From: Microbacterium sp. AB | GTDB lineage: Bacteria; Actinomycetota; Actinomycetes; Actinomycetales; Microbacteriaceae | NCBI RefSeq assembly: GCF_032878875.1 | Contig: NZ_CP118157.1 | Coordinates: 372,001-436,000, forward strand | Length of the DNA: 64,000 nt | Direction: 5' to 3' | Shown here: one piece after another, positions 40,913 to 59,895 of the stretch | How positions within the stretch are numbered: position 1 is the stretch's first letter | Layout of the letters: every line of letters starts with the position of its first letter | Program-made: the position numbers and the translations under genes | Notes under the pieces: generated by a model | What the model saw: the letters and a program-made list of their open reading frames with translations, nothing else | What the model was told of the DNA's origin: nothing | Database searches by the model: none

Positions 40913-40987
40913 GCCCCCTCGCGTCGATCGCGTGTCGGCGTCTGTTTCGGGTCCGTGAATTCCTCGGGTCGTTTGGTCGCGTTCCTC

Positions 40988-41016
40988 TTGACAGCGTTCT
41001 GGTGCGCTCCCAATGT
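40988..41016 (+). promoter_or_regulatory. sigma-70 type promoter of the Rieske/BCCT operon
   Basis: TTGACA (40988-40993) and CAATGT (41011-41016) are 17 bases apart. The last two bases of the -10 are also the first two of the 40-bp palindrome. Confidence 0.72.
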
Positions 41017-41054
41017 GTTGTGCAATACGCGAAATCGTGCGTAATACACAACAC
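41015..41054. promoter_or_regulatory. 40-bp operator palindrome, site 1 (betaine regulon)
   Basis: Arms GTGTTGTGCAATACGC (41015-41030) and GCGTAATACACAACAC (41039-41054) match as inverted repeats at 14 of 16 positions around an 8-base centre. It overlaps the -10 end and the transcription start, a repressor position. By hand alignment it matches site 2 (59765-59804) at 25 of 40 positions, with identical length and ends. Confidence 0.82.
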
Positions 41055-41088
41055 GTTCACATCCTGGGACGGGGGAGGCTCCGATCGC

Positions 41089-41430
41089 ATGCTGCGCATC
41101 TGCTCGCTGGACGAACTGACCGACGACGAGGGCATCCGCATCGATGCCGTCTCCCCTCCCATCGCGGTGTTCCTGACCTCCGAGGGGGAGGTGTGCGCGC
41201 TCGACGACACGTGCACCCATCAGGACGCATCCCTCGCGGAGGGATGGGTCGAAGGCGGCCGCGTCGAGTGCCCCCTGCACGCGAGCACGTTCTCGCTGCG
41301 GACGGGCGAGGTCGACGCCCCGCCGGCGACGCGCGGCGTCAGGGCGCATCAGGTCGAGGTGATCGACGGGGAGGTCTTCGTCGAGCTCTCCACCGCGGAG
41401 CCGAACCTTCCTCCCGGGGTGGTGTACTGA
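41089..41430 (+). CDS. Rieske [2Fe-2S] ferredoxin
   Basis: Small electron carrier of 113 residues. The cluster ligands are C42-x-H44 (DDTCTHQDASL) and C61-x2-H64 (VECPLHASTF), as in ferredoxins of three-component ring-hydroxylating oxygenases. It would pass electrons from the FAD reductase (next gene) to the oxygenase. ATG 41089 has GGGGGAGG ten bases upstream. The stop overlaps the reductase ATG by one base. Confidence 0.93.
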   Translation: MLRICSLDELTDDEGIRIDAVSPPIAVFLTSEGEVCALDDTCTHQDASLAEGWVEGGRVECPLHASTFSLRTGEVDAPPATRGVRAHQVEVIDGEVFVELSTAEPNLPPGVVY

Positions 41431-42614
41431 TGCCCCGCGTCGCGATCGTCGGCGCCGGGCTCGCCGGCTACACCGTCGCGCGCACCCTTCGTGCGGCGGG
41501 CCACGAGGGGGAGATCGTCGTGGTGGGCGCCGAGGCGCACCGGCCGTACGACCGTCCCCCGCTCAGCAAGGCCTACCTCTCGGGCGAGCTCGACGCGGCG
41601 GGCATCGCGCTGGAGGGCGACGAGGAGATCGGCGTCGGATGGCGTCTCGGCGTCGCGGCCGTCGGACTGGACGCCGGCACCCGGGCCCTCGCGCTCTCCG
41701 ACGGAAGCGTGCTGGGAGCGGACGAGATCGTCCTCGCCGTGGGGGCGTCGCCGCGGGAACTGCCCGAGCTGCCGGGTGCGCCGTCCGGCGCGCCGGCGCA
41801 CGTGCTCGGGACGAGGGAGCACGCCGACGCCCTGCGTGCGGCGCTCGTCCCCGGAGCCGAGGTCGTGATCGCGGGGGCGGGATTCGTCGGCCTCGAGGTC
41901 GCCGCCGCCGCGATCGCCGCCGGCGCGGCGTCCGTGACGGTCGTCTGCGCCGATACGTCTCCGCTGCGCCGGTTCGGCGCCGAGGCGAGCGCCGCCGTGC
42001 GCGGGCTGCACGAACGCTCCGGCGTGCGCTTCGTGACGGGCGTGCGCGTCGTCGGCGTCGAGCGCTCCCCGGACGGTCGCCCTGTCGGCGTGCGGCTGGG
42101 CGACGGGCGCGTGGCGGAGGGGTCGGTGGTCGTCGCGGGGATCGGCGCCGTCCCGTCCACCGGCTGGCTCGCGGGCAGCGGTCTCGCCCTCACGCCCTGG
42201 CGAGCCGTCGCGTGCGACGACCGGGGGCGTGCGGCCCCGGGGATCCACGCCGCCGGAGACTGCGCCGCCTGGGGAGAGGTCTCCTGCGGGCACTGGACGC
42301 TCGCGCGGGAGCAGGCCTCGCGCGCGGCCGAAGACATCGTCGCCCCCGGGACGGCCGCGGCGTCGGGGGAGCCTCCCTATGTGTGGAGCGACCAGCACGG
42401 CGCGAGAGTGCAGTTCGCCGGGCGCCTCCGCGGCGACGAGACGGTCTCGGTCGCCGCGGGCGACGTCGCGGCGGGCGACCCGCTCCTCGTCTACCGCGAC
42501 TCCCGCGGCGAGGAGGTCGCCGCGTTCGGCATCGACCAGCCCCGCCTCATGATGCGCTGGCGCAAGACGCACCGCGCCGTCGCCTCGCCCTCCCCGCAGG
42601 TCGCGGCCGCATGA
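41430..42614 (+). CDS. FAD-dependent ferredoxin reductase (NAD(P)H:ferredoxin type)
   Basis: Flavoprotein of 394 residues like the reductases of aromatic dioxygenases and putidaredoxin reductase. It has VAIVGAGLAGYTVARTLR (FAD), HRPYDRPPLSKAYL, VVIAGAGFVGLEVAAAAIA (NAD(P)) and GIHAAGDCAAW (FAD ribityl site). It delivers electrons to the Rieske ferredoxin encoded just before. It is organised as one operon with the oxygenase 37 bases downstream. Confidence 0.93.
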   Translation: MPRVAIVGAGLAGYTVARTLRAAGHEGEIVVVGAEAHRPYDRPPLSKAYLSGELDAAGIALEGDEEIGVGWRLGVAAVGLDAGTRALALSDGSVLGADEIVLAVGASPRELPELPGAPSGAPAHVLGTREHADALRAALVPGAEVVIAGAGFVGLEVAAAAIAAGAASVTVVCADTSPLRRFGAEASAAVRGLHERSGVRFVTGVRVVGVERSPDGRPVGVRLGDGRVAEGSVVVAGIGAVPSTGWLAGSGLALTPWRAVACDDRGRAAPGIHAAGDCAAWGEVSCGHWTLAREQASRAAEDIVAPGTAAASGEPPYVWSDQHGARVQFAGRLRGDETVSVAAGDVAAGDPLLVYRDSRGEEVAAFGIDQPRLMMRWRKTHRAVASPSPQVAAA

Positions 42615-42651
42615 GAACCGTCCCGTTCGAGCTCAGGAGAGGGCACGCACG

Positions 42652-43782
42652 ATGATCATCGAGCAGTTGGACAACCCGCTTCCCGGCTCCCTGCTGCCCA
42701 CGCTGGCGGGCGGCTACTACACCGACCCCGCCGTGTTCGCACAGGAGCAGGAGCGCATCTTCGAGCAGTCCTGGTTCTGCGTCGTCCACGGCAGCGACAT
42801 CCCGGACCCCGGCGACTACAGGCTCGTGCAGGTGGGCCGCGAGCAGCTCATCGTGTCGCGCAACCGCAGGCGCGAGGTCCGGGCGTTCTTCAACGTCTGC
42901 CGCCACCGCGGCATGCGCGTGTGCACGGAGGAGGCGGGCACGCGGCGCACCTTCCAGTGCGGCTATCACGCGTGGACGTACGACCTCGACGGGAGGCTGA
43001 TCGCCGCGCCCAACCTCACCCGGATGCCCGACATCGACCGCGACGACTACGGCCTGCGGCGCATCCACGTCCGCGAGTGGCTCGGATACGTCTGGGTGTG
43101 CACGGCGGAGGAGGCGCCGTCGTTCGAGGAGACGGTGCTGAGCGAGGTGGTGAACCGTCTCGGCGAGGTGGAGAGCCTCGACCGCTACCAGGTCGAGAAC
43201 CTCGCGATCGGCAGACGGATCGCGTACGACGTCCATGCGAACTGGAAGCTCGTCATCGAGAACTTCATGGAGTGCTACCACTGCGCGACCATCCATCCGG
43301 AGCTCACGCAGGTGATCCCCGAGTTCGCCGAGGGCTGGGCCGCGCAGACGAACGTGGGCCTCGGCGCCGAGTTCGGCGAGGGCATCGAGGGCTTCACGGT
43401 CGACGGGTCGGCCGGGGCGGCCGAGCTGCCGCTCATCGCCCCCGGCCAGGAGCGGCGGTACTTCGCCATCACCATCCGGCCCAACGTCTTCGTCAACATG
43501 GTCCCGGACCACGTCATCGTCCACCGGATGTTCCCGGTCAGCGAGTCGTCCACCTACGTCGAGTGCGACTGGCTGTTCCTGCCGGAGGTGGTGGACTCCG
43601 CCAGGGACGTCTCGAAGTCGGTGGAGCTGTTCGACCGGGTCAACCTGCAGGACTTCGACGCGTGCGAGAAGACCCAGCCCGCGATGTCGTCGCGTCTCTA
43701 CCGCACGGGCGGCGCGCTCGTCCCGGCGGAGCACCACATCGCCTTCTTCCACCAGTGGCTCGTCGAGGCGTTGCGACCGTGA
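42652..43782 (+). CDS. Rieske non-haem iron oxygenase, probable glycine betaine (quaternary amine) demethylase
   Basis: Catalytic oxygenase of 376 residues. The Rieske cluster is C83-x-H85 (VCRHRG) and C103-x2-H106 (CGYHAW). Mononuclear iron ligands are probably H210 and H215 (MECYHCATIH) plus D334 (NLQDFDACE). The bridging position holds Glu207 instead of the usual Asp, as in the choline monooxygenase/GbcA/CntA group acting on quaternary amines. A BCCT carrier follows directly, and dimethylglycine and sarcosine oxidases share the operator, so glycine betaine to dimethylglycine plus formaldehyde is the best guess. Carnitine or stachydrine remain possible. Confidence 0.82.
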   Translation: MIIEQLDNPLPGSLLPTLAGGYYTDPAVFAQEQERIFEQSWFCVVHGSDIPDPGDYRLVQVGREQLIVSRNRRREVRAFFNVCRHRGMRVCTEEAGTRRTFQCGYHAWTYDLDGRLIAAPNLTRMPDIDRDDYGLRRIHVREWLGYVWVCTAEEAPSFEETVLSEVVNRLGEVESLDRYQVENLAIGRRIAYDVHANWKLVIENFMECYHCATIHPELTQVIPEFAEGWAAQTNVGLGAEFGEGIEGFTVDGSAGAAELPLIAPGQERRYFAITIRPNVFVNMVPDHVIVHRMFPVSESSTYVECDWLFLPEVVDSARDVSKSVELFDRVNLQDFDACEKTQPAMSSRLYRTGGALVPAEHHIAFFHQWLVEALRP

Positions 43783-45563
43783 GCGACCGCGACACCACCC
43801 GAAGCCTCCTGACCTCGCTCAGGGACGCCGGCGGCGCCGATGCGCCCCGTCCGCGTCGCACGGGCGTCGACAGGATCGTCTTCGGCGCCGCGGCGGTCAT
43901 CGCCGTCGCCTTCGTCGCCTGGGGCGTGTCCGCCCCGTCGGGGCTCGGCGCCGTCGCATCGAGTGCGCTGTCGTGGACGATGGACACGCTCGGCTGGCTC
44001 TTCGTCATCGCCGCGTCCGTGTTCACGGTGTTCGTGCTCGTCGTCGCCCTCGGACGCTTCGGCCGCGTCCCGCTCGGCCGCGACGGCGACACGCCGCAGT
44101 ACCGCACGTCGTCGTGGATCGCGATGATGTTCGCGACGGGCATGGGCATCGGCCTCGTCTTCTACGGCGTCGCCGAGCCGCTGTACTTCTACGTCTCGCC
44201 CCCGCCCGGCACGGTCGAGGGGCAGACCCCCGAGGCGCTGAGCGTCGCGATGGGCCAGACGCTCTTCCACTGGACCCTGTTCCCGTGGGCCATGTACGCG
44301 ATCGTCGGCCTCGGCATGGCGTACGGCACCTACCGGCTCGGGCGCAGCCAGCTGTTCTCGTCCATGTTCACGTCCCTGTTCGGCCCGCGCGTCGTGGACG
44401 GCGCGGGAGGGCGCGTCATCAACGTCCTCGCGATCATCGCCACGCTGTTCGGCTCGGCGTGCTCGCTCGGGCTCGGCGCCCTGCAGATCGGCGGCGGCAT
44501 CGCCTACGCCGGCCTGCTGCCCGAGGCGGGCACGCCCCTGCTCGTGATCGTCATCGCGGTCCTCACGGCGGCGTTCGTCGCCTCCGCCGTCTCCGGGATC
44601 GAGCGCGGCATCCAGTGGCTGTCGAACATCAACATGCTGCTCGCGGTCGTGCTGGCGCTCGTCGTCTTCGTGGGCGGCCCGACGCTGTTCATCCTCAACG
44701 TCCTGCCCGACGCGATCGGCGCGTTCGTCGGGAACCTGCCGGAGATGGCATCGCGGACGGCGGTCGCCGGCGACGCCTCGCTCGCCGAGTGGATGTCGGG
44801 GTGGACGGTCTTCTACTGGGCGTGGTGGATCTCGTGGACGCCCTTCGTGGGGCTGTTCATCGCGCGCATCTCGCGCGGGCGGACCATCCGGCAGTTCGTC
44901 ACCGGGGTGCTGCTGGTCCCCTCCCTCGTCTCGACGATCTGGTTCACGGTCTTCGGCGGCGGGGCGATCGGCCTCCAGGAGCGGGCGGAGGAGGCGGGCG
45001 ACACCGGCGCGGCGCTCGTGGACGTGGTCGGCGGCGTTCCCGACATCGACTTCGACACCGCTCTGTTCACCCTCCTCGACGCCCTGCCGTTCCCGACGTG
45101 GGCGACGGTCGCGCTCTTCGTCCTCGCCGCCGTGCTCATCGCGATCTTCTTCGTCACCGGAGCCGACTCCGCGTCGATCGTCATGGGCTCGCTGAGCGAG
45201 AACGGCGCCGAGGACCCGACCCGCAAGACCGTGATCTTCTGGGGCGTCTCGACCGGAGCGGTCGCTGCGGTCATGCTGCTCGCCGGCGGCGACGACCCCG
45301 CAGCGGCTCTGAACGGGCTGAAGAACATCACGATCGTCTCGGCGGTGCCGTTCGTGGTCGTCATGCTCGTGCTGTGCGTCGCGCTGTGGCGCGATCTCGC
45401 GCGCGACCCCCTCGTGATCCGGGGAGACCTGGCCCGCCACCTGCTGGTCGAGAGCGTCGCGAGCGGCGTGGAGACGCACGCCGGCGAGCCGTTCCAGCTC
45501 AGCACGGTCGAGGTGGAGGCGGCGGTCGTCGACGAGGGCGGAGAGGCGTCGTCGCCGTCGTGA
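43779..45563 (+). CDS. BCCT-family betaine/carnitine/choline transporter
   Basis: Secondary transporter of 594 residues with about twelve helices. It has the family landmarks SSWIAMMFATGMGIGLVFYGVAEP (in two parts) and the aromatic-box helix WTVFYWAWWISWTPFVGLFI, which binds the trimethylammonium group. The glycine-rich MFATGMGIGL favours sodium- or proton-driven symport. The C-terminal tail is acidic and lacks the long basic osmosensing extension of BetP-like carriers, consistent with a catabolic role. The GTG start overlaps the oxygenase stop. Confidence 0.93.
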   Translation: MSDRDTTRSLLTSLRDAGGADAPRPRRTGVDRIVFGAAAVIAVAFVAWGVSAPSGLGAVASSALSWTMDTLGWLFVIAASVFTVFVLVVALGRFGRVPLGRDGDTPQYRTSSWIAMMFATGMGIGLVFYGVAEPLYFYVSPPPGTVEGQTPEALSVAMGQTLFHWTLFPWAMYAIVGLGMAYGTYRLGRSQLFSSMFTSLFGPRVVDGAGGRVINVLAIIATLFGSACSLGLGALQIGGGIAYAGLLPEAGTPLLVIVIAVLTAAFVASAVSGIERGIQWLSNINMLLAVVLALVVFVGGPTLFILNVLPDAIGAFVGNLPEMASRTAVAGDASLAEWMSGWTVFYWAWWISWTPFVGLFIARISRGRTIRQFVTGVLLVPSLVSTIWFTVFGGGAIGLQERAEEAGDTGAALVDVVGGVPDIDFDTALFTLLDALPFPTWATVALFVLAAVLIAIFFVTGADSASIVMGSLSENGAEDPTRKTVIFWGVSTGAVAAVMLLAGGDDPAAALNGLKNITIVSAVPFVVVMLVLCVALWRDLARDPLVIRGDLARHLLVESVASGVETHAGEPFQLSTVEVEAAVVDEGGEASSPS

Positions 45564-45578
45564 GGTGAGACCGGACTT

Positions 45579-45610
45579 CCCCGCCGATCCCCCTCCGGCC
45601 AACGGCGGGG
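45579..45610. terminator. hairpin between convergent BCCT and VOC genes
   Basis: CCCCGCCG (45579-45586) and CGGCGGGG (45603-45610) form a perfect 8-bp stem with a 16-base loop in the 47-base gap between the two stops. Confidence 0.5.
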
Positions 45611-45967: not shown

Positions 45968-46017
45968 GGCCCCGAGCATACGTGCGGTCCGCCGTCGGCC
46001 GCCGCGGCGGACGCCTC

Positions 46018-47373
46018 CTAGGGCCGGGCGGCGCGCTCCCCCTCGGACAGCGCGGCGGCCTCTGCGAGGACCGATGCGATCGCCGCCGCGCCCTCGGCGA
46101 CGACCCCGGCGGTCACCCTCACGAACGGCGCGGCGGACTCCGCTCCGACGACGAACGGCGTCCCCGCGGCGACGCCGATGCCCGCGGCGGCCAGGTGCAC
46201 GAGCGCCGCGCGCTCGTCGGCCACCGGGAGCCGCAGGTTGAGCCCGTCGGGGCGGCCGACGTCCACCCCGCGGGCGCCCAGCGCGTCGGCGAGGACCCCC
46301 GCGCGATCGCGGTACGCGCGCCGCGCCGCGCGCACGACCTCCGCCGAGGCGGGGTCGGTCAGCAGGTCGACCAGCACGGCCTGCAGCAGCCTCGACGTCC
46401 ACGCCGGCCCCAGCATGCGGCGCGCGACCACGCGCTCGACGATACGCGCCGGCCCGCCGACGGCGGCGAGGCGCAGGTCGGGGCCGTGCGACTTCGAGAA
46501 GCTGCGCACGTGCACGACCTGCTCGGGCAGCCACGTGCCGAGGGTCACGTCGGGGGCGTCGGCGATGGGGCCGGAGTGGTCGTCCTCGACGACGACCACG
46601 CGGTCGCCGTCGCGGGAGGCCGCGATGACGCGGGCGAGCTCGTGCGCGCGATCCGTCGTCATCGACGCCCCCGTGGGGTTCTGCGCGCGCGGCTGCACGA
46701 GCACGGCGACGGGCCGGCGGGCGAGGGCGGCGGCGAGGGACGCGGGCGTGACCCCCTCGGAGTCGAGCGCGAGCGGCACCGGCTCGGCGCCGAGGACCTC
46801 GATCAGGTCGAGGAAGTGGGGGAAGCCGGGCGACTCCACCGCGACGCGATCCCCGAACCGCACGAGCTGCCCCAGCGTGCGGTCGATCCCGTCGAGCGCC
46901 CCGTCGACCACCGTGATCGTCTCGGCGCGCGACGGCCACATCGCCTCGAGCAGGGAGCCGAGCGCGGGGAGGACCGGCAGGTCGCGGTAGCGCCCCGCCT
47001 CGGCGCGCGGCGAGACGCGGGAGAAGGCCGGTCCGAGTGCCGGCAGCAGCGCGGGATCGGGCGTGCCGAGCGACAGGTCGAGCCGCGGCTCGCCGCCGCC
47101 GCTCATCCCCTGGATGCGCGGCGTGAGCCAATCGCGGGGCGTCTCGCGCACGAAGGTGCCCGCCCTCCCGCGCGAGACGATGACCCCCGCCCGGGCGAGC
47201 GCCTGCCAGGCGGCGCTCACGGTGGCCGGGCTGACCGAGAGGACGGAGGCGATCTCGCGCACCGTGGGGAGCCGGTCGCCCGGGGCGAGCACGCCATCGG
47301 TGACGAGGCGAGCGAGCACCCCGGCGATGCCCTGCGGGGTGCGGTCGGGGAACTCCGCGTCGATCCTCTGCAC
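46018..47373 (-). CDS. MocR-type regulator (GntR helix-turn-helix fused to class I aminotransferase domain)
   Basis: PLP-dependent transcription factor of 451 residues. The N-terminal winged helix is GDRLPTVREIASVLSVSPAT with VSAAWQALARAGVI. The aminotransferase-like domain contains VQPRAQNPTGASMTTDRA, VVVEDDHSG and the PLP Lys294 in VRSFSKSHGPDLRL. Such proteins sense PLP adducts of amino compounds (GabR, PdxR, TauR). It is divergent from the pyrimidine-catabolic operon, which ends with an aminotransferase, so sensing beta-alanine or beta-aminoisobutyrate is plausible. Confidence 0.9.
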   Translation of the reverse strand: MQRIDAEFPDRTPQGIAGVLARLVTDGVLAPGDRLPTVREIASVLSVSPATVSAAWQALARAGVIVSRGRAGTFVRETPRDWLTPRIQGMSGGGEPRLDLSLGTPDPALLPALGPAFSRVSPRAEAGRYRDLPVLPALGSLLEAMWPSRAETITVVDGALDGIDRTLGQLVRFGDRVAVESPGFPHFLDLIEVLGAEPVPLALDSEGVTPASLAAALARRPVAVLVQPRAQNPTGASMTTDRAHELARVIAASRDGDRVVVVEDDHSGPIADAPDVTLGTWLPEQVVHVRSFSKSHGPDLRLAAVGGPARIVERVVARRMLGPAWTSRLLQAVLVDLLTDPASAEVVRAARRAYRDRAGVLADALGARGVDVGRPDGLNLRLPVADERAALVHLAAAGIGVAAGTPFVVGAESAAPFVRVTAGVVAEGAAAIASVLAEAAALSEGERAARP

Positions 47374-47563
47374 GTGGGCTCCCCTCCTGCGCGCACCGGT
47401 CCGGAGGCTTAACGGTCACGTCACAGGCCGAAACCGAAGAGAAATGTTCAGCCGGAAGAATAACACAAAGAGGCCGGCTCGTCGGCCCGCGCCCGGTCCC
47501 CGGGGCGGCGGCGGGTCCTCCATGACAGGCGATCCTCACCGGATCCGAGACCAGGAGGCGACG
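47374..47563. promoter_or_regulatory. divergent promoter region, locally AT-rich
   Basis: The 190 bases between the MocR gene and the nitrilase gene include an AT-rich patch (about 47425-47472) that stands out from the GC-rich surroundings, consistent with back-to-back promoters and regulator sites. I could not assign a convincing -35/-10 pair or MocR direct repeats by eye. Confidence 0.45.
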
Positions 47564-48412
47564 ATGACGACGGTTCGCGCAGCGATCACGCAGACCACGT
47601 GGACGGGCGACAAGGAGTCGATGCTCGACACGCACGAGCGGTTCGCCCGGGAGGCGGCGGCCGAGGGCGCGCAGATCATCTGCTTCCAGGAGCTGTTCTA
47701 CGGCCCGTACTTCGGCATCACGCAAGACAAGAAGTACTACCGCTACGCGGAGCCGGCCGACGGCCCGATCGTGCAGCGGTTCGCGGCGCTGGCCAAGGAG
47801 CTGGGCCTCGTGACCATCCTCCCCATCTACGAGGAGGAGCAGACCGGCGTGTACTACAACACGGCCGTGGTGGTGGACGCCGACGGCACGATCCTCGGGA
47901 AATACCGCAAGCACCACCTCCCGCACGTCGAGAAGTTCTGGGAGAAGTTCTACTTCCGCCCCGGCAACCTCGGCTATCCCGTCTTCGACACCGCCGTCGG
48001 CAAGGTCGGCGTCATCATCTGCTACGACCGTCACTTCCCCGAGGCCTGGCGCGAGCTCGGCCTGAACGGGGCGCACATGGCCTTCAACCCGAACGCCACC
48101 AAGCCCGGCCTGTCGAACCGGCTGTGGGAGGTGGAGCAGCCGGCTGCCGCCGTCGCGAACGGGTACTTCGTGCTCGCGCCCAACCGCGTCGGGCTCGAGG
48201 ACAACGAGTACGGCGACGAGGCGGTGGACTTCTACGGCAAGAGCCAGATCGTGGACCCGCGCGGCAACCACGTCGGGGAGCTCGGCTCGGGCGAGCACGA
48301 GGAGATCCTCATCCGCGACCTCGACCTCGACCTCGTGCGGCAGATGCGCGACGACTGGCAGTTCTACCGCGACCGCCGGCCCGATTCCTACGGCGAGATC
48401 ACGGCCCCCTGA
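47564..48412 (+). CDS. nitrilase-superfamily N-carbamoyl amidohydrolase (beta-ureidopropionase)
   Basis: Hydrolyses N-carbamoyl-beta-alanine (or N-carbamoyl amino acids) to the amino acid, CO2 and ammonia, third step of reductive pyrimidine breakdown. The 282-residue protein has the Glu43-Lys116-Cys153 triad (CFQELFYGPYF, GKYRKHHLPH, IICYDRHFPEAWRELG). PNATKPGLSNRLWEVEQPAAAVAN is typical of PydC/beta-ureidopropionase. ATG 47564 has AGGAGG five bases upstream. First gene of the operon, 16 bases before the dihydropyrimidinase. Confidence 0.93.
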   Translation: MTTVRAAITQTTWTGDKESMLDTHERFAREAAAEGAQIICFQELFYGPYFGITQDKKYYRYAEPADGPIVQRFAALAKELGLVTILPIYEEEQTGVYYNTAVVVDADGTILGKYRKHHLPHVEKFWEKFYFRPGNLGYPVFDTAVGKVGVIICYDRHFPEAWRELGLNGAHMAFNPNATKPGLSNRLWEVEQPAAAVANGYFVLAPNRVGLEDNEYGDEAVDFYGKSQIVDPRGNHVGELGSGEHEEILIRDLDLDLVRQMRDDWQFYRDRRPDSYGEITAP

Positions 48413-48428
48413 GCGAGCGGAGCACATC

Positions 48429-49871: not shown

Positions 49872-49881
49872 GGAGCCGCGC

Positions 49882-51818: not shown

Positions 51819-52639
51819 CGATCGCCGACGCGCACGACGTCGCCGACGCGGTCTCCGTCGCCGGGGCGTCCAAGGTCTTCCCGGGAAGGCGCGGCGAGGT
51901 GCACGCCCTCGACGACGTCTCGCTGACCGTGCGCGCCGGCGAGTCCGTGTCGCTGATCGGCCCGTCCGGGTGCGGCAAGTCGACCCTCCTGCGCCTGATC
52001 GCCGACCTCGACTCGCCGACCTCGGGCTCGGTGCAGGTCTTCGGGAAGCCGGCCTCGCGCGCCCGGCGCGATCAGGACTACGGCATCGCCTTCCAGCAGG
52101 CGGGCCTGCTGCCCTGGCGCACCGTCGCCGCGAACATCGGCCTGCCCCTCGAGCTTCACGGCGTCCCCGCCGCCGAGCGCCGCGCGCGCGTCGGCGACCT
52201 CGTGGACCTCGTCGGCCTCGCCGACTTCGCCGACCGCCACCCCGACCAGCTGTCCGGCGGGATGCAGCAGCGTGTGGCGATCGCGCGGGCGCTGGCCGAG
52301 CGGCCGCGGCTGCTGCTGATGGACGAGCCGTTCGGGGCGCTCGACGAGATGACGCGCGAGCGGATGCAGACCGAGCTCTCGCGCATCGCCGCCGAGACGG
52401 GCGCCGCCGTCGTGTTCGTGACGCACTCGATCCCCGAGGCGGTCTTCCTCTCCGACCGCGTCGTGGTGATGTCGCCCCGGCCGGGGCGGATCACGGACAT
52501 CGTCGGGACGGGTCTCGGCGCCGACGTCGCCCGCGACGACGCCCTGCGCGAGTCGCCGCGCTTCTTCGAGCGCGTCACCGCGGTGCGCGAGGCGCTGCAC
52601 GGCGCTCCCGTCCCTGGGCGAGGGCGGGAGCGCCGATGA
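51815..52639 (+). CDS. ABC transporter ATP-binding protein (SsuB/TauB-like)
   Basis: ATPase of 274 residues with GPSGCGKST, the Q-loop FQQAGLLPWRTV, signature LSGGMQQRVAIARAL, Walker B LLLMDEPFGALDEMTR and FVTHSIPEAV. This is the nitrate/sulfonate-type subgroup. It lies between the two permease genes with four-base overlaps. Confidence 0.93.
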   Translation: MTIADAHDVADAVSVAGASKVFPGRRGEVHALDDVSLTVRAGESVSLIGPSGCGKSTLLRLIADLDSPTSGSVQVFGKPASRARRDQDYGIAFQQAGLLPWRTVAANIGLPLELHGVPAAERRARVGDLVDLVGLADFADRHPDQLSGGMQQRVAIARALAERPRLLLMDEPFGALDEMTRERMQTELSRIAAETGAAVVFVTHSIPEAVFLSDRVVVMSPRPGRITDIVGTGLGADVARDDALRESPRFFERVTAVREALHGAPVPGRGRERR

Positions 52640-53433
52640 CGCTCTCCTCCGCTCCCTCGCCGACGGCGCAGCAGGGCCTGCGCATCCTCGCCCCTATCGC
52701 GCTCGGGGTCGTGGGCCTCGGGCTGTGGCAGTTCCTCGTGAGCGTGGTGGGCGTCTCCGACTATCTGCTGCCCAGCCCCGCCGCGATCGTCGGAGAGCTC
52801 GTCGCGTTCGCCCCGGCCATCGCGGGAGCCGCCGCCGTGACGGGAGCGAACGCGCTCGTGGGGCTCGTCGTCGGCATGGTCGTCGCGGTGACGCTCGCCG
52901 CCCTGGCCTCGCGCTGGCACGCCGTCGACGCGATGGCGTCTCCCGTCGTCGCGGCGCTCGCGGTCGTCCCGATCGTCGCGCTCGCCCCCGTGCTCAACTC
53001 GATGTTCGGCGCCGACAGCCAGTTCGGCCGGCAGGCGATCGCGGCGCTCGCCGCTTTCGTGCCGGTCTTCGTCAACGCGCTTCGCGGCCTGCGCCAGGCA
53101 CGGCCCATCCATCGCGAGCTCCTGCACGCCTACGCCGCCACGGGCGCGCAGGCCTTCCGCTTCGTGACCCTCCCCTCCGCCGTGCCCCATCTGATGACCG
53201 GCATCCGCCTGGCGAGCTCCCTCGCGGTCATCTCGGCGCTCGTGGCCGAGTACTTCGGCGGGCCGCGCGGGGGCCTGGGCAGCTTCATCTCGACCTCGGC
53301 GGCCACGAGCGCGTACGCGCGGGCCTGGGCGTACGTCGTGGCCGGCATCGTCATCGGCCTCGCGTTCTTCCTCGTCACGGCGCTGCTCGAGCGTCTCGTG
53401 CTGCGACGCATCCCGTCCGGAGCGACGTCGTGA
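52636..53433 (+). CDS. ABC transporter permease (second subunit, SsuC-like)
   Basis: Membrane subunit of 265 residues with VSDYLLPSPAAIVGELVAF early, the loop LLHAYAATGAQAFRFVTLPSAVPHLM, and ALVAEYFGGPRGGLGSFI, typical of the family. ATG 52636 overlaps the ATPase stop. The gap of 78 bases to the binding-protein gene has no strong hairpin. Confidence 0.9.
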   Translation: MTLSSAPSPTAQQGLRILAPIALGVVGLGLWQFLVSVVGVSDYLLPSPAAIVGELVAFAPAIAGAAAVTGANALVGLVVGMVVAVTLAALASRWHAVDAMASPVVAALAVVPIVALAPVLNSMFGADSQFGRQAIAALAAFVPVFVNALRGLRQARPIHRELLHAYAATGAQAFRFVTLPSAVPHLMTGIRLASSLAVISALVAEYFGGPRGGLGSFISTSAATSAYARAWAYVVAGIVIGLAFFLVTALLERLVLRRIPSGATS

Positions 53434-53511
53434 CGCCGGCCGTCCGCTCGCGCCGTCCGGTCCGCATCCATCCGCACCACCCCGTCGCACACGAACCCGA
53501 AAAGGAATGAC

Positions 53512-54654
53512 ATGAGCCACAGCACACGTCGCCGCAGGGCGACAGGCGCCCTCGCCGTCCCGGCCCTCCTCGTCCTCTCCGCCTGCTCCGGCGACGGGGG
53601 AGGGACCGACAGCGCCGGGGAGGAGCTGACACCGGTCGTCCTGCAGCTGCAGTGGCTGCCGCAGGCGCAGTTCGCCGGCTACTTCGCCGCCGTCGAGCAG
53701 GGCTTCTTCGCCGAGGAGGGGCTCGAGGTGGAGATCGTCCCGTCCGGCGGCGACATCGTCCCGCAGGACGCCCTGGCGAACGGCGACGCCGACTTCGCGA
53801 TCGCGTGGGTGCCCAAGGTGCTCGGATCGATCGAAGCCGGCGCGAACCTCACCAACATCGCGCAGATCTTCCAGCGCTCGGGCACCCTGCAGGTCTCCTG
53901 GGCCGACTCGGGCATCGAATCGGTCGCCGACTTCGAGGGCCAGCGCATCGGCTCGTGGGGCTACGGGAACGAGTGGGAGATCTTCGCGGCGATGGCCGAC
54001 GAGGGTCTGGACGCGTCGACCGTGCAGATCATCACGCAGGACTTCAACATGAACGCCTTCCTGCAGGGCGACATCGACGCGGCGCAGGCGATGACCTACA
54101 ACGAGTACGCGCAGCTGCTGGAGACGGTCGACCCCGACACGGGAGAGCTCTACCGGCCCGAGGACTTCACCGTCATCAGCTACGAGGACACGACGGGCGC
54201 CATGCTGCAGGACGCCGTCTGGGCGGACGCCGAGCGGCTCGAGAGCGACGCCGCATACGCCGAGACCGCCGTCTCGTTCCTCAAGGCCGTCGTCAAGGGA
54301 TGGGTCTTCGCGCGCGACGACCCGGAGGAGGCCGCCGAGACCACGATCGCCCAGGGGTCGGGCTGGGGCCCGAGCCACGAGCTGTGGATGATGAACGAGA
54401 CGAACAAGCTCATCTGGCCCTCGCCGGACGGCGTGGGCGTCGTCGACGAGACGGCGTGGGATCGCACGGTCTCGGCCGCACTCGCCGCCGTCAACGAGAC
54501 CGGTGCGCGCCTCATCACCGCGGAGCCGCCCGCGACGGCGTACTCGAACGAGTACATCCAGGAGGCGCTCGACGCCCTCGAGGGCGAAGGCCTCGATCTC
54601 ACGGGAGACGATTTCGCCCCCCTCGAGGTCGAGCTGCAGGAGGGCGGCAGCTGA
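53512..54654 (+). CDS. ABC transporter solute-binding lipoprotein (NMT1/THI5-like)
   Basis: Binding protein of 380 residues with signal peptide and lipobox VLSAC. The fold signature VVLQLQWLPQAQFAGYFAA then EQGFFAEEGLEVEIVPSGG is that of the THI5/NMT1 group, whose members bind pyrimidines and related rings. This agrees with the operon's pyrimidine-opening enzymes. A strong hairpin follows the gene (54683-54712). Confidence 0.92.
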   Translation: MSHSTRRRRATGALAVPALLVLSACSGDGGGTDSAGEELTPVVLQLQWLPQAQFAGYFAAVEQGFFAEEGLEVEIVPSGGDIVPQDALANGDADFAIAWVPKVLGSIEAGANLTNIAQIFQRSGTLQVSWADSGIESVADFEGQRIGSWGYGNEWEIFAAMADEGLDASTVQIITQDFNMNAFLQGDIDAAQAMTYNEYAQLLETVDPDTGELYRPEDFTVISYEDTTGAMLQDAVWADAERLESDAAYAETAVSFLKAVVKGWVFARDDPEEAAETTIAQGSGWGPSHELWMMNETNKLIWPSPDGVGVVDETAWDRTVSAALAAVNETGARLITAEPPATAYSNEYIQEALDALEGEGLDLTGDDFAPLEVELQEGGS

Positions 54655-54682
54655 CGTCGTCCCGATCGGGGACACCACATCC

Positions 54683-54712
54683 GGGCCGGCGGCCTCGCGG
54701 GACCGCCGGCCC
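54683..54712 (+). promoter_or_regulatory. intercistronic hairpin after the pyrimidine-binding-protein gene
   Basis: GGGCCGGCGG and CCGCCGGCCC form a perfect 10-bp stem with a 10-base loop. It sits 28 bases after the stop and ends 20 bases before the aminotransferase ATG. Without a T-tract it may partly terminate or, more likely, protect the upstream mRNA, like the hairpin at 28538-28572. Confidence 0.65.
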
Positions 54713-54732
54713 CTCAGGAGAGGCACCCATCC

Positions 54733-56067
54733 ATGACCGGCACAGATCCGTCGACCGGCGCCGACTCGTCGCTCGACGCGCTCGCCCACGACCTCGACCG
54801 CGCGCACGTGTTCCACTCCTGGGCGGCGCAGGGGGCGCTCGACCCGCTCGTGATCGCGGGCGGGTCGGGGACCCGTGTCTGGGACCACGCAGGCAGGACC
54901 TATCTCGACTTCTCCAGCCAGCTCGTCAACGTCAACATCGGGCATCAGCACCCCGTCGTGGTCCGCGCGATCCAGGAGCAGGCGGCGCAGCTGGCCACCG
55001 TCGCGCCGTCGACCGCGCACCTCGCCCGCGGCGAGGCCGCGAAGCGCATCGTCGCCCGCGCCCCGGAGGGCTTCCGCAAGGTCTTCTTCACCAACGGGGG
55101 CGCCGACGCCAACGAGAACGCGATCCGCCTGGCGCGGCTGCACACGGGGCGCGACAAGGTCGTGTCGGCCTACCGCTCGTACCACGGCAACACCGGCGCG
55201 GCGATCGTGTCCACGGGCGACTGGCGGCGCGTCCCGAACGAGTACGCCCGCGGGCACGTCCACGTGTTCGGCCCCTATCTCTACCGCAGCGAGTTCTGGG
55301 CCACCACGCCCGAGCAGGAGTCCGAGCGGGCGCTCCGCCACCTGGAGCGCGTCGTGCAGGCCGAGGGCCCGGGATCCGTCGCCGCGGTCCTGCTCGAGTC
55401 GGTGCCCGGGACCGCCGGCGTCCTCGTCCCGCCGCCCGGGTACCTGGCCGGGGTGCGCGCGATCTGCGACCGGTACGGCATCGTGCTCGTCCTCGACGAG
55501 GTGATGGCCGGCTTCGGCCGCACGGGGCGCTGGTTCGCCTTCGAAGGGCACGACGTCGTCCCCGACCTCATCGCCTTCGCGAAGGGGGTCAACTCCGGCT
55601 ACGTGCCCGTGGGCGGCGTCATCATCTCCGACGAGATCGCCGCGGGCTTCGACGAGCGGGTCTTCCCGGGCGGCCTCACCTACTCGGGGCACCCGCTGGC
55701 GGCGGCGTCCATCGTCGCGGCCCTCGACGCGATGGAGGACGAGGGGATCGTGGAGAACGCCCGCCGCGTCGGCGACGATGCGATCGCCCCCGCCCTCGCG
55801 GAGCTCGCCGAGAGACACGAGGTCGTGGGAGAGGTGCGCGGCGACGGCGTGTTCTGGGCGATCGAGCTCGTCGCCGACCGCGCGACGCGAGAGCCGCTGC
55901 CGGACGCCGCGATGGCGGCGCTCAAGAAGGACCTGGTCGGCCGCGGCCTGCTGCCGTTCGTGCAGGACAACCGCATCCACGTCGTGCCGCCCTGCGTCGT
56001 CACCGACGACGAGGTGGCCGAGGCGGTCGCCCTCTACGACGAGGCGCTCGCCGCCCTCCCGCGCTGA
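54733..56067 (+). CDS. class III aminotransferase (beta-alanine/omega-amino acid type)
   Basis: PLP enzyme of 444 residues. VFHSWAAQGALDPLVIAGGSGTRVWD at the N-terminus, FFTNGGADANENAIRLAR, VLVLDEVMAGFGRTGRWFA and Lys284 in FAKGVNSGYVPVGGV define the fold and PLP site. Opening with HSWAAQ fits the beta-alanine/taurine:pyruvate group. As last gene of the pyrimidine operon it would convert beta-alanine to malonate semialdehyde. Its 3' end overlaps the convergent sarcosine oxidase gene by 34 bases. Confidence 0.9.
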   Translation: MTGTDPSTGADSSLDALAHDLDRAHVFHSWAAQGALDPLVIAGGSGTRVWDHAGRTYLDFSSQLVNVNIGHQHPVVVRAIQEQAAQLATVAPSTAHLARGEAAKRIVARAPEGFRKVFFTNGGADANENAIRLARLHTGRDKVVSAYRSYHGNTGAAIVSTGDWRRVPNEYARGHVHVFGPYLYRSEFWATTPEQESERALRHLERVVQAEGPGSVAAVLLESVPGTAGVLVPPPGYLAGVRAICDRYGIVLVLDEVMAGFGRTGRWFAFEGHDVVPDLIAFAKGVNSGYVPVGGVIISDEIAAGFDERVFPGGLTYSGHPLAAASIVAALDAMEDEGIVENARRVGDDAIAPALAELAERHEVVGEVRGDGVFWAIELVADRATREPLPDAAMAALKKDLVGRGLLPFVQDNRIHVVPPCVVTDDEVAEAVALYDEALAALPR

Positions 56068-57221
56068 AGCGCGGGACGCAGCGGGTCGAAGAGCGTCGTC
56101 GGCAGCAGCGACGAGGAGCCGGTGAGCGCGAGGTCGGCGAGGATCTCGCCGACGACGGGCACGAACTTGAAGCCGTGCCCGCTGAAGCCGCACGCGATCT
56201 GCACCTGCTCGTGCAGCGGGTGGGCGCCGATGACGAAGTGCTCGTCGGGGGTGACCGAGTAGAGGCACGTCTTGGCCTGGACGAGCTCCCCCGTCAGCCG
56301 GGGGAACAGCTGCAGCGCGCGCCGGCGCATGTCGTCGACCTCGTCGTCGTGGACGGTGCGGTCGATCGTCTGCGGCGTCGTCGGCGTGCCCCTGCGGAAG
56401 TACCCGAGCTTGAGGCCGCCGCGCGGCCCGTCGGTCATGGGGAAGCCGTAGATCTGCCCGTTGCCGTGCGTCTCCTCGATGTAGACCGGATGGCGCGCGT
56501 CGCTGTAGCTCTCGTACGGCACCCGATCGGTGTCCTCCGGCGCGAACCAGTAGAAGACCATCCGGTCGATGGCCAGGGGCAGGCCGAGCTCGGGCAGGAT
56601 CTGCGGCGCCCACGGCCCGGGCGTGACGACGAGCCTGTCCGCCCCGTAGGCGCCCCGCGTCGTGACGACCTCCACGCCACCGCCCGGCGTCGCCTGCCAG
56701 TGCGTGACGGGCTCGTGGAACCGCAGCGCGGCGCCCTTGCGCGCCGCGACCTCGGCGTTCGCGATGGTCGTCTCCTCCGGGCGCACGTAGCCGGCGTTCG
56801 CCTCGTAGACGGCCATCGCGTCGTCGGCGGGGTCCATGGTCGGGAACCGGCGCCGGATCTCCTCCGCGTCGAGGATCTCGTGGGCGAGGCCGTGCAGCTC
56901 GGCGGCGCTCCTGCTGCCCGTGAACGTCACGTCGTCCGGGTCGCCGATGTAGACGCCTCCGCAGAGCTCCATGATCGCGCGACCCGACTCCTCCTCGAGC
57001 CGGCGCCATCCCTCGTAGGCGCGTCGCAGCAGCGGCACGTACTCCGGGCTCTCGAAGTACGACTGCCGGACGATGCGGGTCCCGCCGTGCGCGGCTCCCT
57101 GATCGTGCCCGGGCGCGAACGTCTCGAGCCCGAGAACGCGTGCGCCGCGCCCGGCGAGGCTGTTCGCCGCGGCGCCTCCCATCGATCCGACGCCGAGGAC
57201 GATGACGTCGTAGTGCTCCAT
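56034..57221 (-). CDS. soxA: monomeric sarcosine oxidase (N-methyl amino acid oxidase)
   Basis: FAD enzyme of 395 residues that would oxidise sarcosine to glycine, formaldehyde and H2O2. The dinucleotide motif is VIVLGVGSMGGAAANSLA. HGGTRIVRQSYFESPEYVPL and the covalent-flavin Cys319 in AKTCLYSVTPDEHFVIG match MSOX/SolA enzymes, as does SGHGFKFVPVVGEI. N-methyl-tryptophan oxidase is the main alternative name in this family. It starts 23 bases after the dimethylglycine oxidase stop, and so shares its promoter and operator. Confidence 0.9.
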   Translation of the reverse strand: MEHYDVIVLGVGSMGGAAANSLAGRGARVLGLETFAPGHDQGAAHGGTRIVRQSYFESPEYVPLLRRAYEGWRRLEEESGRAIMELCGGVYIGDPDDVTFTGSRSAAELHGLAHEILDAEEIRRRFPTMDPADDAMAVYEANAGYVRPEETTIANAEVAARKGAALRFHEPVTHWQATPGGGVEVVTTRGAYGADRLVVTPGPWAPQILPELGLPLAIDRMVFYWFAPEDTDRVPYESYSDARHPVYIEETHGNGQIYGFPMTDGPRGGLKLGYFRRGTPTTPQTIDRTVHDDEVDDMRRRALQLFPRLTGELVQAKTCLYSVTPDEHFVIGAHPLHEQVQIACGFSGHGFKFVPVVGEILADLALTGSSSLLPTTLFDPLRPALQRGRAASASS

Positions 57222-57244
57222 CGGTGCGCTCCTCCCTCCTCGGC

Positions 57245-59743
57245 TCAGCGGCGGATGTGCGTCATCTCCGCGTCGAACAGCGGCTCGGCCCGCACCGTCG
57301 CCGCCTGCCGTTCGGCGAAGTACTCGATCTCGAGCCGCGTCCCGGGCTCGGCCAGGCGGGCGGGGAGCCAGGCGTAGGCGATCGACGCGCCGATCGTGTA
57401 CCCCTGGTCGGCGCTCGCGACGTACCCGACCGCGGCGGTCTCGTCGGCCGCGTACACGGGCTCGCCGCCGAGCACGACGCGTGCGGGGTCGTCGAGGACG
57501 AGCGGCACGAGCCGGCGCGGCGCGGCGCGGGTCGCGAGCGCGTCCCTGCCGACGAAACCGGCCTTGCCCATCCGCACGGCGAAGCCGAGCCCGGCCTCCT
57601 CGGGGGTGTGCTCGCGGTTCATGTCGGCGCCGAACGCGCGGTAGCCCTTCTCAAGCCGCAGGGAGTTGAACGCGCGTCGTCCCGCCGCGATGACGCCGGA
57701 GGGCTGCCCCGCCTCCCAGAGCGTGTCCCAGAGGTACAGGCCGTGATCGGCCGTCGTGTACAGCTCCCATCCGAGCTCTCCGACGTAGCTCACGCGGAGG
57801 GCGAGCACGGGTGCCCCGGCGACGCGGATCGACCGGGCGCGGAAGTACCCGAAGCCGGAGTGCGAGACGTCGTCGTCGGTCACGCGCTGCAGGACCTCCC
57901 GCGCGCGAGGCCCCCACAGGCCGATGCCGCAGCCTCCGGGGGACGCCGGCCGGACGGACACCCCCGGGGGCGCATGCTCGACGAGACGGACGCGGTCGGG
58001 CTCGCCGTTCGTCCCGACGAGGTACCGTTCCTCGCCCAGGCGCGTGACGGTGACGTCGGAGAGGATGCCGCCGCGGTCGTCGAGGAGGAGGCCGTAGACG
58101 ACGCGCCCGATCGCGACGTCGACGTCGTTCGTCAGGAGGCGCTGCAGGAGCTCCGTGGCCCCGGGGCCCTCCACCTCGAGCCGGGGGAGGGGGGAGAGGT
58201 CGTACAGCGCGACGGCGGTGCGGGTGACGTGCGCCTCGGCGGCCGCGATGGGCGACCAGCCCTCGCCCGCCCACGCGTCCCGTGCCGGAACCGTCGTGAG
58301 CCCGTCGAGCAGGTGCGCGTTCGCCTCGAACCAGAGGGGCCGCTCCCATCCGCCGCCCTCGCCGAACACGGCGCCCTGCGCGACGTGGCGCGGATGGAAC
58401 GGGCTCGTGCGCAGCCCGCGCAGTCGTGCCGTCGGCCGGTGGGGATGGCGGATGTCGTAGACCTCGTCGTACGCCTCCTCCGCCCGCTCGCGTGTGAACG
58501 CGCGGCTGACGAGCGCCGGATCGAAGCGCGAGTGGTCGAGGCCGTGGGTGTCGATGCCGGGGTCGCCGGAGACGATCCAGTCGGCCATGACCTGCGCGAC
58601 GCCCGCGGACTGCGTGACCCAGACGGCCTGCGCGAGCCAGACCCCCTCCGTCCCCGGCACGGGGCCGAGCAGGGGGCCGCCGTCGGGCGTGAACGAGAAG
58701 ATGCCGTTGAATCCCGTGTCGAAGGCGACGTCGCGCAGCTCGGGCAGCAGCCGCCTCGCCTCCTCCCACGACGGGGCGAAGTCGTCCCAGGTGAGCGGAT
58801 GCATGGCCGGGTGCACGCCGGTCGCGGCGAACTCGTCCGCCGATGCGATCTGCGACTGCTCGAGCGGGATGGGGCGGTGGTTGTAGGCGCCGACGCCGAT
58901 GCGGTCGACGTATTCGCGCAGGTAGAGGGAGAAGTCCTGATGGCGCAGCATGGGCCGCGACGTCTCGTCGAGCGGGGTGTTCCGCCCGGCCAGAGACGGC
59001 ACGGGCCCGCTGTGGCCGAAGCCGTGCTCCATCGGCTGCATCGGGAGCTCGAACCCGAGCACGTCGCGCGAGATGCCCGGACCCCACAGGCCGGCGCAGG
59101 ACACGACGACGTCGGCGGGCACGTGCTCGGGGGCCGCATCGCGGGAGGGGACGGGGACGACCTCGACGCCCGTGACCCGGCCGCCCTTCCTCGCGATGCC
59201 GACCACGCGCGTCGACCCGACGATGCGGGCGCCCCTGTCCGCGGCCCGCTCGGCCTGCCAGCGGACGGCCGGCACGGACTTGACGACGCCGTCGGTGGGG
59301 GTGAGGAAGCCGCCGAGCACGGACGCCGGGTCGAGGCCCGGCCAGAGCCTCGCGCACTCGTCGGCATCCACGAGGGAGGAGGGCACGCCCCACGACGAGG
59401 CGAGCCCGTGACGTCGCCGGAGGTCGTGGAGGCGCTCGGGCGTGGTCGCGATCTCCAGGCCGCCCACGCGCTTGACGAGCCACTGCCCGTCGAGCCGGAC
59501 GCCGTCGAGCTTGTCGAGCGTGCGCGCGGCGAGCCTCGTCATGGTGCGGTCGGCGGTGGTCTGGAAGACGAAACCGGGGGCGTGGGACGACGACCCGCCC
59601 GTGACGTAGAGCGGCCCCTGGTCGAACACGGTCACGTCGGCGATGCCGCGCAGGGTGAGCTCGTCGGCGAGGGCCGAGCCCACCACCCCGAGCCCGACGA
59701 TCACGACGCGCGGCTGTGCGGCGAGGGGGGAGAGCTCGGCCAC
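57245..59743 (-). CDS. dmg: dimethylglycine oxidase (FAD domain plus GcvT-like folate domain)
   Basis: Bifunctional enzyme of 832 residues closely resembling Arthrobacter globiformis dimethylglycine oxidase. The FAD domain opens RVVIVGLGVVGSALADEL, and the covalent-flavin His54 lies in GGSSSHAPGF. GFNGIFSFTPDGGPLLGPV and EAYDEVYDIRHPHRPTARL follow. The C-terminal half is an aminomethyltransferase-like folate domain (AVALYDLSPLPRLEVEGPGA, RVSYVGELGWELYTTADHG, RLEKGYRAFGADMNREHTPEEAG). The known enzyme turns dimethylglycine into sarcosine and can pass the carbon to tetrahydrofolate instead of releasing formaldehyde. GTG 59743 is preceded by GAGGTGATCC. Its promoter carries the regulon operator. 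Confidence 0.92.
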   Translation of the reverse strand: MAELSPLAAQPRVVIVGLGVVGSALADELTLRGIADVTVFDQGPLYVTGGSSSHAPGFVFQTTADRTMTRLAARTLDKLDGVRLDGQWLVKRVGGLEIATTPERLHDLRRRHGLASSWGVPSSLVDADECARLWPGLDPASVLGGFLTPTDGVVKSVPAVRWQAERAADRGARIVGSTRVVGIARKGGRVTGVEVVPVPSRDAAPEHVPADVVVSCAGLWGPGISRDVLGFELPMQPMEHGFGHSGPVPSLAGRNTPLDETSRPMLRHQDFSLYLREYVDRIGVGAYNHRPIPLEQSQIASADEFAATGVHPAMHPLTWDDFAPSWEEARRLLPELRDVAFDTGFNGIFSFTPDGGPLLGPVPGTEGVWLAQAVWVTQSAGVAQVMADWIVSGDPGIDTHGLDHSRFDPALVSRAFTRERAEEAYDEVYDIRHPHRPTARLRGLRTSPFHPRHVAQGAVFGEGGGWERPLWFEANAHLLDGLTTVPARDAWAGEGWSPIAAAEAHVTRTAVALYDLSPLPRLEVEGPGATELLQRLLTNDVDVAIGRVVYGLLLDDRGGILSDVTVTRLGEERYLVGTNGEPDRVRLVEHAPPGVSVRPASPGGCGIGLWGPRAREVLQRVTDDDVSHSGFGYFRARSIRVAGAPVLALRVSYVGELGWELYTTADHGLYLWDTLWEAGQPSGVIAAGRRAFNSLRLEKGYRAFGADMNREHTPEEAGLGFAVRMGKAGFVGRDALATRAAPRRLVPLVLDDPARVVLGGEPVYAADETAAVGYVASADQGYTIGASIAYAWLPARLAEPGTRLEIEYFAERQAATVRAEPLFDAEMTHIRR

Positions 59744-59764
59744 GGATCACCTCGACTCGACATG

Positions 59765-59804
59765 GTGTTGCTCTATTCGCAACGACGTGTAGATCGCGCA
59801 ACAC
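59765..59804. promoter_or_regulatory. 40-bp operator palindrome, site 2 (betaine regulon)
   Basis: It begins GTGTTGCTCTATTCGC and ends CGCGCAACAC, so the outer seven bases (GTGTTGC/GCAACAC) are perfectly inverted. Total length is 40, as in site 1 (41015-41054), and 25 of 40 bases agree. On the minus strand it overlaps the last two bases of the -10 element, the same geometry as site 1. Confidence 0.75.
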
Positions 59805-59831
59805 GCTACGGGCTCCCGCATGCTCCGGCAA
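59803..59831 (-). promoter_or_regulatory. promoter of the dimethylglycine/sarcosine oxidase operon
   Basis: On the minus strand TTGCCG (59826-59831) and TAGCGT (59803-59808) are 17 bases apart. The -10 ends two bases inside the operator. Confidence 0.62.
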
Positions 59832-59895
59832 GAGCGCGTCGACGAGGGAGACCCGATGTTTACATCGGCGTTACGCGGGCCTCGGTCTCGTCCGG

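Follow-up and report, generated by a model that had tools for sequence, protein, structure and literature searches.

A predicted IclR-controlled glycine betaine regulon with tandem operators in Microbacterium sp. AB

In the present study, a stretch of 64,000 nucleotides from Microbacterium sp. AB (contig NZ_CP118157.1, positions 372,001 to 436,000 of the forward strand; hereafter the window, with coordinates counted from its first letter) was analysed with respect to two operons encoding putative enzymes of glycine betaine catabolism and a neighbouring gene for an IclR-family regulator. Judged from sequence, it is very probable that both operons belong to one glycine betaine regulon under the control of this IclR protein, with repression exerted from tandem operators and relieved by a ligand. 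The parts are ordinary, the regulon was not found described, and the circuit is a conserved one, the pairing of site, regulator, and pathway appearing to persist in many related bacteria.

Operators and promoters of the two operons

Operator 1 (41015..41054, plus strand) precedes an operon for a ferredoxin, a reductase, a Rieske oxygenase, and a BCCT carrier on the plus strand, and operator 2 (59765..59804, minus strand), separated from it by 18.7 kb, precedes an operon for N,N-dimethylglycine oxidase (DMGO) and a sarcosine-oxidase-type enzyme on the minus strand. A preliminary description of this DNA had reported 40-bp sites with GTGTTG...CAACAC ends and identity at 25 of 40 positions, and these coordinates, ends, and counts were correct on re-reading; the identity refers to the same strand and amounts to 22/40 when each site is read in the direction of its operon. 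The promoters, read from the sequence, were also as described, with 17 bp between the two boxes and with both -10 boxes overlapping the operator by their final two bases. Promoter 1 (40988..41016, plus strand) consists of the -35 box TTGACA at 40988-40993 and the -10 box CAATGT at 41011-41016, and promoter 2 (59803..59831, minus strand) of TTGCCG at 59831-59826 and TAGCGT at 59808-59803.

The palindromicity of the two sites, taken alone, was not above chance. Dyad pairing reaches 15/20 at site 1 and 12/20 at site 2, and the window holds 11 positions with at least 15 pairs (site 1 among them) and 162 with at least 13; dyads of such quality are thus common in the window, so that symmetry alone is weak proof, and palindromicity was rejected as evidence. 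By reading, each operator contains two 17-bp palindromes of the GTT-N11-AAC type with centres 19 bp apart (41017-41033 and 41036-41052 in operator 1, with the same tandem geometry in operator 2), and this is a better description of the operators than one 40-bp palindrome. An alignment of 22 sites, including both window sites and sites from some of the related loci described below, led to nTGTTGCGTAnTGCGAAnnACGTTGCGTAATnCGCAACAn, in which two GTT-N11-AAC palindromes are again separated by 19 bp between centres. Suvorova and Gelfand (2021, PMC8222616) have described tandem palindromes with centres 18-22 nt apart, which they relate to tetramer binding, in a study covering 94 orthologous groups of IclR proteins. 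The window sites resemble the regulons of that study in the distance of 19 bp between centres, the GTT-11-AAC frame, and the catabolic nature of the operons; compared by eye with the published half-site GTTYCRYW3RYGRAAC, they have the frame, with G/C at positions 4/14 and degenerate inner boxes. The words "betaine", "sarcosine", and "Rieske" are absent from the main text of that study, whose supplementary tables may contain the group.

Within its own genome (3,636,743 bases, 3.64 Mb), the string GTGTTG-N28-CAACAC occurs exactly twice, as the two window operators. A search with the 22-site profile at E<=10, in which 150 of 161 first-look candidates were scored, likewise reported the two window operators only and thus yielded no further regulon members at this threshold. 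Among the 294 other genomes of the genus, the literal string had 8 matches in 7 genomes. As a conserved motif it was rejected, since among the genomes where profile and IclR agree it is present in the own genome only; the conservation of the operator is visible only with a matrix.

Conservation of the operator and its linkage to the IclR gene

Conservation was assessed in 80 related loci, the best of 586 confirmed stretches recruited with the Rieske protein of the window. A matrix built from the two window operators alone gave 287 matches above the threshold of 12 in these loci, whereas 50 column-permuted matrices gave 5.2 on average and 27 at most; adjacent matches counted as one with the real matrix and separately with the permuted ones, so that the comparison is biased against the real matrix. 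The best real score was 38.5 and the best permuted score 24.1. At least one match was present in 75 of the 80 loci, and 187 of the 287 matches were located at most 350 bp in front of iclR or a gene of the pathway, in regions comprising 8% of the area. A lack of conservation of the palindrome upstream of orthologous betaine genes had been set beforehand as a refuting outcome, and the regulon was not refuted by these results.

With the 22-site matrix, after genes below 100 bits, start-truncated genes, and genes without upstream sequence had been dropped, a site was found at most 250 bp upstream of 63/65 ferredoxin and 58/78 iclR genes. The corresponding counts were 17/79 for the Rieske alpha subunit, 8/69 for the reductase, 5/10 for the BCCT carrier, and 0/12 for the sarcosine-oxidase-type gene; where few genes have a site, this is presumably due to their internal position in an operon. 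Equivalents of operator 1 are therefore conserved upstream of ferredoxin genes, and equivalents of operator 2 were observed upstream of DMGO in L011, L133, and L134. By eye, the ferredoxin promoters of L011, L012, L014, L015, L016, and L018 have the operator after TTGACA and abutting the -10 box, and a similar layout with TTGACG was observed in L017.

The candidate regulator (40127..40912, plus strand), proposed as the repressor of both units, belongs to the IclR family by both domains, with Pfam IclR_C at 132.6 bits and HTH_IclR at 69.2 bits, each above its cut-off. Within the stretches analysed, an IclR relative was found in 74/80 loci and within 6 kb of the Rieske gene in 71/80. The own genome has 18 places with HTH_IclR, of which all others are only 17-31% identical to the window protein; against a profile of pathway-adjacent IclR proteins, which includes the window protein, the latter scored 353 bits and the next protein of the genome 119. 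Together with the co-occurrence described below, this linkage and sole good fit bear out the IclR gene at 40127 as the candidate regulator named in the preliminary description. In 78 sequences, mean conservation was higher in the helix-turn-helix domain (0.86) than in the effector domain (0.72).

Co-occurrence was examined in 295 genomes of the genus, including the own, with the site called at E<=0.05 under stricter filters that lose weak matches and the IclR protein at E<=1e-60. The site was detected in 11 genomes, the IclR protein in 10, and both in 8; in other words, 8/10 IclR-bearing genomes have the site compared with 3/285 others (Fisher p = 5.6e-12). When the own genome and G079, which contributed sites to the profile, were left out, the counts were 6/8 and 3/285 (p = 2.8e-9). 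The three site-bearing genomes without the IclR protein (G011, G064, and G168) had no nearby pathway gene above 60 bits, apart from a weak AKR match in G011 (63 bits), and their sites are taken as chance or as sites of other regulators. In a sample of 396 genomes of the order, which may include genomes that supplied profile sites, IclR was found in 24, the site in 43, and both in 17 at the thresholds of 0.05 and 1e-60 (p = 3.2e-13); the site was at most 200 bp from iclR in 15 of these 17 genomes and on another contig in the other two.

The arrangement of the two units differs among relatives. In L011 (Microbacterium sp. 18062) the two operons are divergent; iclR lies in the gap and is encoded on the same strand as DMGO. 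In L012, an Agromyces metagenome-assembled genome (MAG), the Rieske genes share a single direction with iclR, DMGO, and MSOX. Within the stretches analysed, a DMGO relative, called at >=45% identity, was present in 37/80 loci and a sarcosine-oxidase-type gene in 14/80. In the window, the region between the operons (46018-56067) contains, as judged by eye from translations, open reading frames (ORFs) resembling a regulator/aminotransferase, a ureidopropionase, a dihydropyrimidinase, a luciferase, an ABC transporter, and an aminotransferase. Six proteins from this region had no match above 60 bits in 15-20 kb stretches from ten genomes of the genus, which suggests insertion or rearrangement; on a plain reading of the sequence, a cluster would have been split in this lineage, each part having an operator.

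Enzymes, exchanged oxygenases, and further genes behind the site

The first operon encodes a Rieske-type ferredoxin of an oxygenase system (41089..41430, plus strand; Pfam Rieske, and the NCBIfam model PRK09965 for a dioxygenase ferredoxin subunit above cut-off), an FAD-dependent ferredoxin reductase (41430..42614, plus; Pfam Pyr_redox_2 and Reductase_C), a Rieske oxygenase alpha subunit of the group V, quaternary ammonium type, proposed as a glycine betaine monooxygenase (42652..43782, plus), and a betaine/choline/carnitine carrier of the BCCT family (43779..45563, plus; Pfam BCCT at 547 bits, TIGR00842 above and the betaine_BCCT equivalog below cut-off). The second operon encodes DMGO (57245..59743, minus strand) and a monomeric sarcosine oxidase-type flavoenzyme (56034..57221, minus). 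DMGO has 831 residues, the domains DAO, FAO_M, GCV_T, and GCV_T_C, and full-length similarity to a known enzyme, matching the dimethylglycine oxidase 1pj5, presumably from Arthrobacter globiformis, with 830 bits over residues 7-830. The label sarcosine oxidase of the preliminary description agrees with the nearest solved structures, which are sarcosine oxidases (321 bits to 7exs and 246 bits to MSOX 1el5), and disagrees with the soxA_mon cut-off.

The window oxygenase carries an E-C-Y-H-C motif that aligns with the carnitine monooxygenase CntA at the bridging Glu and at the Cys pair. According to PMC10952381, only some members of group V, the group of Rieske enzymes associated with quaternary ammonium substrates, have a Cys-X-X-Cys next to the iron, and the window oxygenase has both the bridging Glu and the Cys-X-X-Cys at the mononuclear iron. 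It is alike to the GbcA/GbcB system in its group V motif and in having GbcA as its best NCBIfam match, but unlike it in that the operon has a separate Rieske ferredoxin and FAD reductase instead of a GbcB-type reductase, the GbcB model not being among their listed matches. A locus of A. globiformis (L086) has the same type of site in front of the genes for its Rieske ferredoxin and reductase but, unlike the window, no site scoring at least 14 before its two DMGO genes (49% identical) within the stretch examined.

Four congeners (G254, G058, G007, and G233; L135-L138) have an orthologous IclR protein that is 68-71% identical and a site before a Rieske gene that is only 27-29% identical to the window oxygenase, and relatives of DMGO and MSOX are present in all four stretches. 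The Rieske proteins of L137 and L138, and a similar one of G222 (L134), scored 367-372 bits with GbcA, below the cut-off of 670, and the gene after the Rieske gene in L138, the only one tested, matched GbcB best (280 bits, cut-off 500). A single regulator with a single type of site thus appears to serve two non-orthologous first enzymes, and the sharing of regulator and site with GbcA-like oxygenases is the best sequence evidence obtained herein for a window oxygenase acting on glycine betaine.

The 22-site matrix gave 299 sites with scores of at least 14 in 76/80 loci, of which 91 were not upstream of a query gene. The ORF clusters behind these 91 sites included opposite-strand frames that looked spurious by eye, and only mscR-, betB-, and purU-like genes were kept. 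In the 80 loci, a site was located at most 320 bp upstream of 46/50 mscR-like, 25/30 purU-like, and 28/47 betB-like genes; one protein of each kind was tested, and the mscR-like protein was above cut-off for S-(hydroxymethyl)mycothiol dehydrogenase (TIGR03451), the PurU-like protein was above cut-off for formyltetrahydrofolate deformylase, and the betB-like protein, scored on 400 residues, reached 452 bits against a cut-off of 669, so that its name denotes the best match only. Such genes are consistent with a need to remove the formaldehyde and one-carbon units that demethylation releases. Examples of this operator type in Streptomyces and other relatives were observed upstream of betB-/purU-like genes (L037 15535, L039 15555) and of mscR-like genes (L023 6211, L026 4376).

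We tentatively consider, as slightly less probable than its opposite, that this is an ancient actinobacterial circuit for the demethylation of quaternary amines, in which an IclR lineage and a tandem operator, in some orders at a fixed spacing below a GlnR box, are conserved, and the first enzyme (three-component Rieske or GbcA/GbcB-like), the operon order, and the side genes (mscR, purU, and betB) are exchanged. If so, the regulator and the site, and not the oxygenase, would be the conserved core, and the site could be used to assign betaine oxygenases.

Proposed mechanism, alternatives, and nitrogen input

Herein, we infer a mechanism in which the BCCT carrier would import betaine, the Rieske system would demethylate it to dimethylglycine, DMGO would convert dimethylglycine to sarcosine, and the sarcosine-oxidase-type enzyme would convert sarcosine to glycine. 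As long as substrate is lacking, two dimers of the IclR protein would occupy the neighbouring palindromes of each operator, 19 bp apart, and would thereby cover the -10 box and start region and block transcription; betaine or an intermediate of the pathway would cause their release. Some 70 nt farther upstream, a GlnR-like box probably contributes activation under nitrogen limitation. The position of the operator over the -10 and start region, as in the published IclR geometry, suggests repression.

Several observations weigh against this regulon as proposed. The window oxygenase reaches only 214 bits with GbcA against the cut-off of 670, a further difference from GbcA/GbcB, and the sarcosine-oxidase-type protein reaches 260.9 bits with soxA_mon against 479.65 and passes only one NCBIfam model, PRK11259 for N-methyl-L-tryptophan oxidase. 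A site is located at most 250 bp upstream of only 16/34 scorable DMGO genes, and the ferredoxin site of L017 scores only 8.5 in register. At the thresholds given above, 7/24 IclR-bearing genomes of the order have no site and 26 site-bearing genomes have no IclR match, and these exceptions weigh against a perfect one-to-one link between regulator and site. In the genus, G151 has no site upstream of its iclR, on a contig of 3,975 bases without the ferredoxin promoter, and G223 has no site despite the presence of a more distant IclR (58%; 59% in tblastn), DMGO (50%), and BCCT. IclR proteins can also activate transcription, no effector pocket was arguable from the conservation of the IclR protein, and no effector can be named. 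The G223 locus (L153), in which a BCCT gene 80% identical to that of the window stands near DMGO and IclR with no detectable operator, is perhaps a paralogous circuit.

These points feed into several alternatives. The regulon might serve another quaternary amine, such as stachydrine, carnitine, or a choline derivative, the Rieske enzyme being no betaine monooxygenase; the best solved matches of the oxygenase, namely the putative dioxygenase 3n0q, 3vca/4qup, which we take to be stachydrine demethylase, and carnitine monooxygenase, are in line with this, as is the score below the GbcA cut-off. Because the site is common to the Rieske and the DMGO/sarcosine-oxidase-type operons, because the corresponding place is taken in congeners by genes resembling GbcA (two tested) and GbcB (one tested), and because purU-, mscR-, and betB-like genes lie behind the same site elsewhere, we regard this alternative as rather unlikely. 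PcaU/PobR-type IclR proteins are ligand-responsive activators, and the second-best NCBIfam match of the window IclR protein is PcaR/PcaU/PobR (158.8 bits, below cut-off). It might follow that the IclR protein acts on the same regulon as a ligand-responsive activator, or both as activator and repressor, with the site touching the -10 box for another reason; both operators begin inside the -10 box and extend downstream, with a similar layout in several relatives by eye, which suits blocking and makes activation unlikely.

It is also conceivable that a different regulator, with its gene at another place in the genome, recognises the sites and that the IclR protein is a mere neighbour, as the 26 of 396 genomes of the order with a site and without an IclR match might indicate. 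This is very unlikely in view of the co-occurrence of IclR and site in genus and order, the distance of at most 200 bp in 15 of 17 genomes, the IclR-type tandem geometry, and the sites upstream of most iclR genes. The likeness of the two palindromes might finally be due to chance, given that their dyad scores alone are ordinary for the window, but the tests with permuted matrices, the own-genome search, and the co-occurrence reduce the probability of this to a negligible level.

GbdR of Pseudomonas is an AraC-type activator, unlike the system proposed herein, which has an IclR regulator beside the operon, DMGO, and a three-component Rieske system. The two are alike in that a regulator is tied to glycine betaine catabolism, according to the consulted part of PMC3572970. 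Among the matches listed, an IclR regulator of betaine demethylation was not found in titles and abstract starts of the openly licensed literature, an absence that is weak because supplements lie outside this scope, and neither was a regulator of betaine demethylation in Actinobacteria. Cells can store the abundant osmolyte glycine betaine or consume it, and they have to choose between the two. With a regulator named, an operator precisely defined, and an input from nitrogen predicted, this choice becomes testable, and the site may help to tell true betaine oxygenases from the many Rieske enzymes that resemble them.

The predicted nitrogen input refers to a GTWWC-N6-GTRAA box about 70 nt before both window operators, which is new in the present study. 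Box 1 (40944..40959, read on the minus strand as TTCAC-N6-GAAAC) lies 71 nt upstream of operator 1 and agrees with 8/9 consensus positions; box 2 (59859..59874, minus strand, GTAAC-N6-GTAAA) lies 70 nt upstream of operator 2 and agrees with 7/9. With these counts they resemble the consensus gTnAC-n6-GaAAc of actinomycete GlnR boxes (PMC10704036). The use of creatine by Corynebacterium glutamicum under the control of AmtR (PMC8864220) is alike in placing a nitrogen regulator over a methylated nitrogen compound in an actinobacterium, but unlike in that a TetR-family protein and creatine are involved there, compared with IclR and betaine here.

Among 21 hand-listed promoters (Micrococcales and one Propionibacteriales MAG) scored with the published GlnR consensus, 11 agree with it in at least 7/9 positions when the offset is 69-71. 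The mean at the best offset, 5.76, exceeded all 500 mononucleotide shuffles (maximum 4.57); kinship is ignored in this comparison, the box was first noticed in these very promoters, and the DMGO promoter of L017, probably mis-anchored, is counted as a miss. The box precedes both promoters in three genomes (the window, L011, and L133), and none was found at offset 69-71 in the four GbcA-type promoters of L135-L138. In the pooled 121 operator promoters, the best-match mean was barely enriched (6.33 compared with 5.94 in shuffles), and 8 promoters had at least 8/9 positions, compared with 1.45 expected and a shuffle maximum of 5. A GlnR-like box in all operator promoters was thus rejected, and because of the weak pooled enrichment the claim is restricted to the orders of the hand-listed promoters, where the box probably adds activation under nitrogen limitation. 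Of two ammonium-transporter promoters of the own genome, inspected with no control, one has a perfect GlnR box and the other one with 8/9 positions. The own genome has two copies of the stricter form GTWWC-N6-GTAAAC, of which one belongs to the DMGO promoter and the other (G000:C1:81404-81420, L157) lies between ORFs that by eye resemble a DeoR-type regulator and an oxidoreductase.

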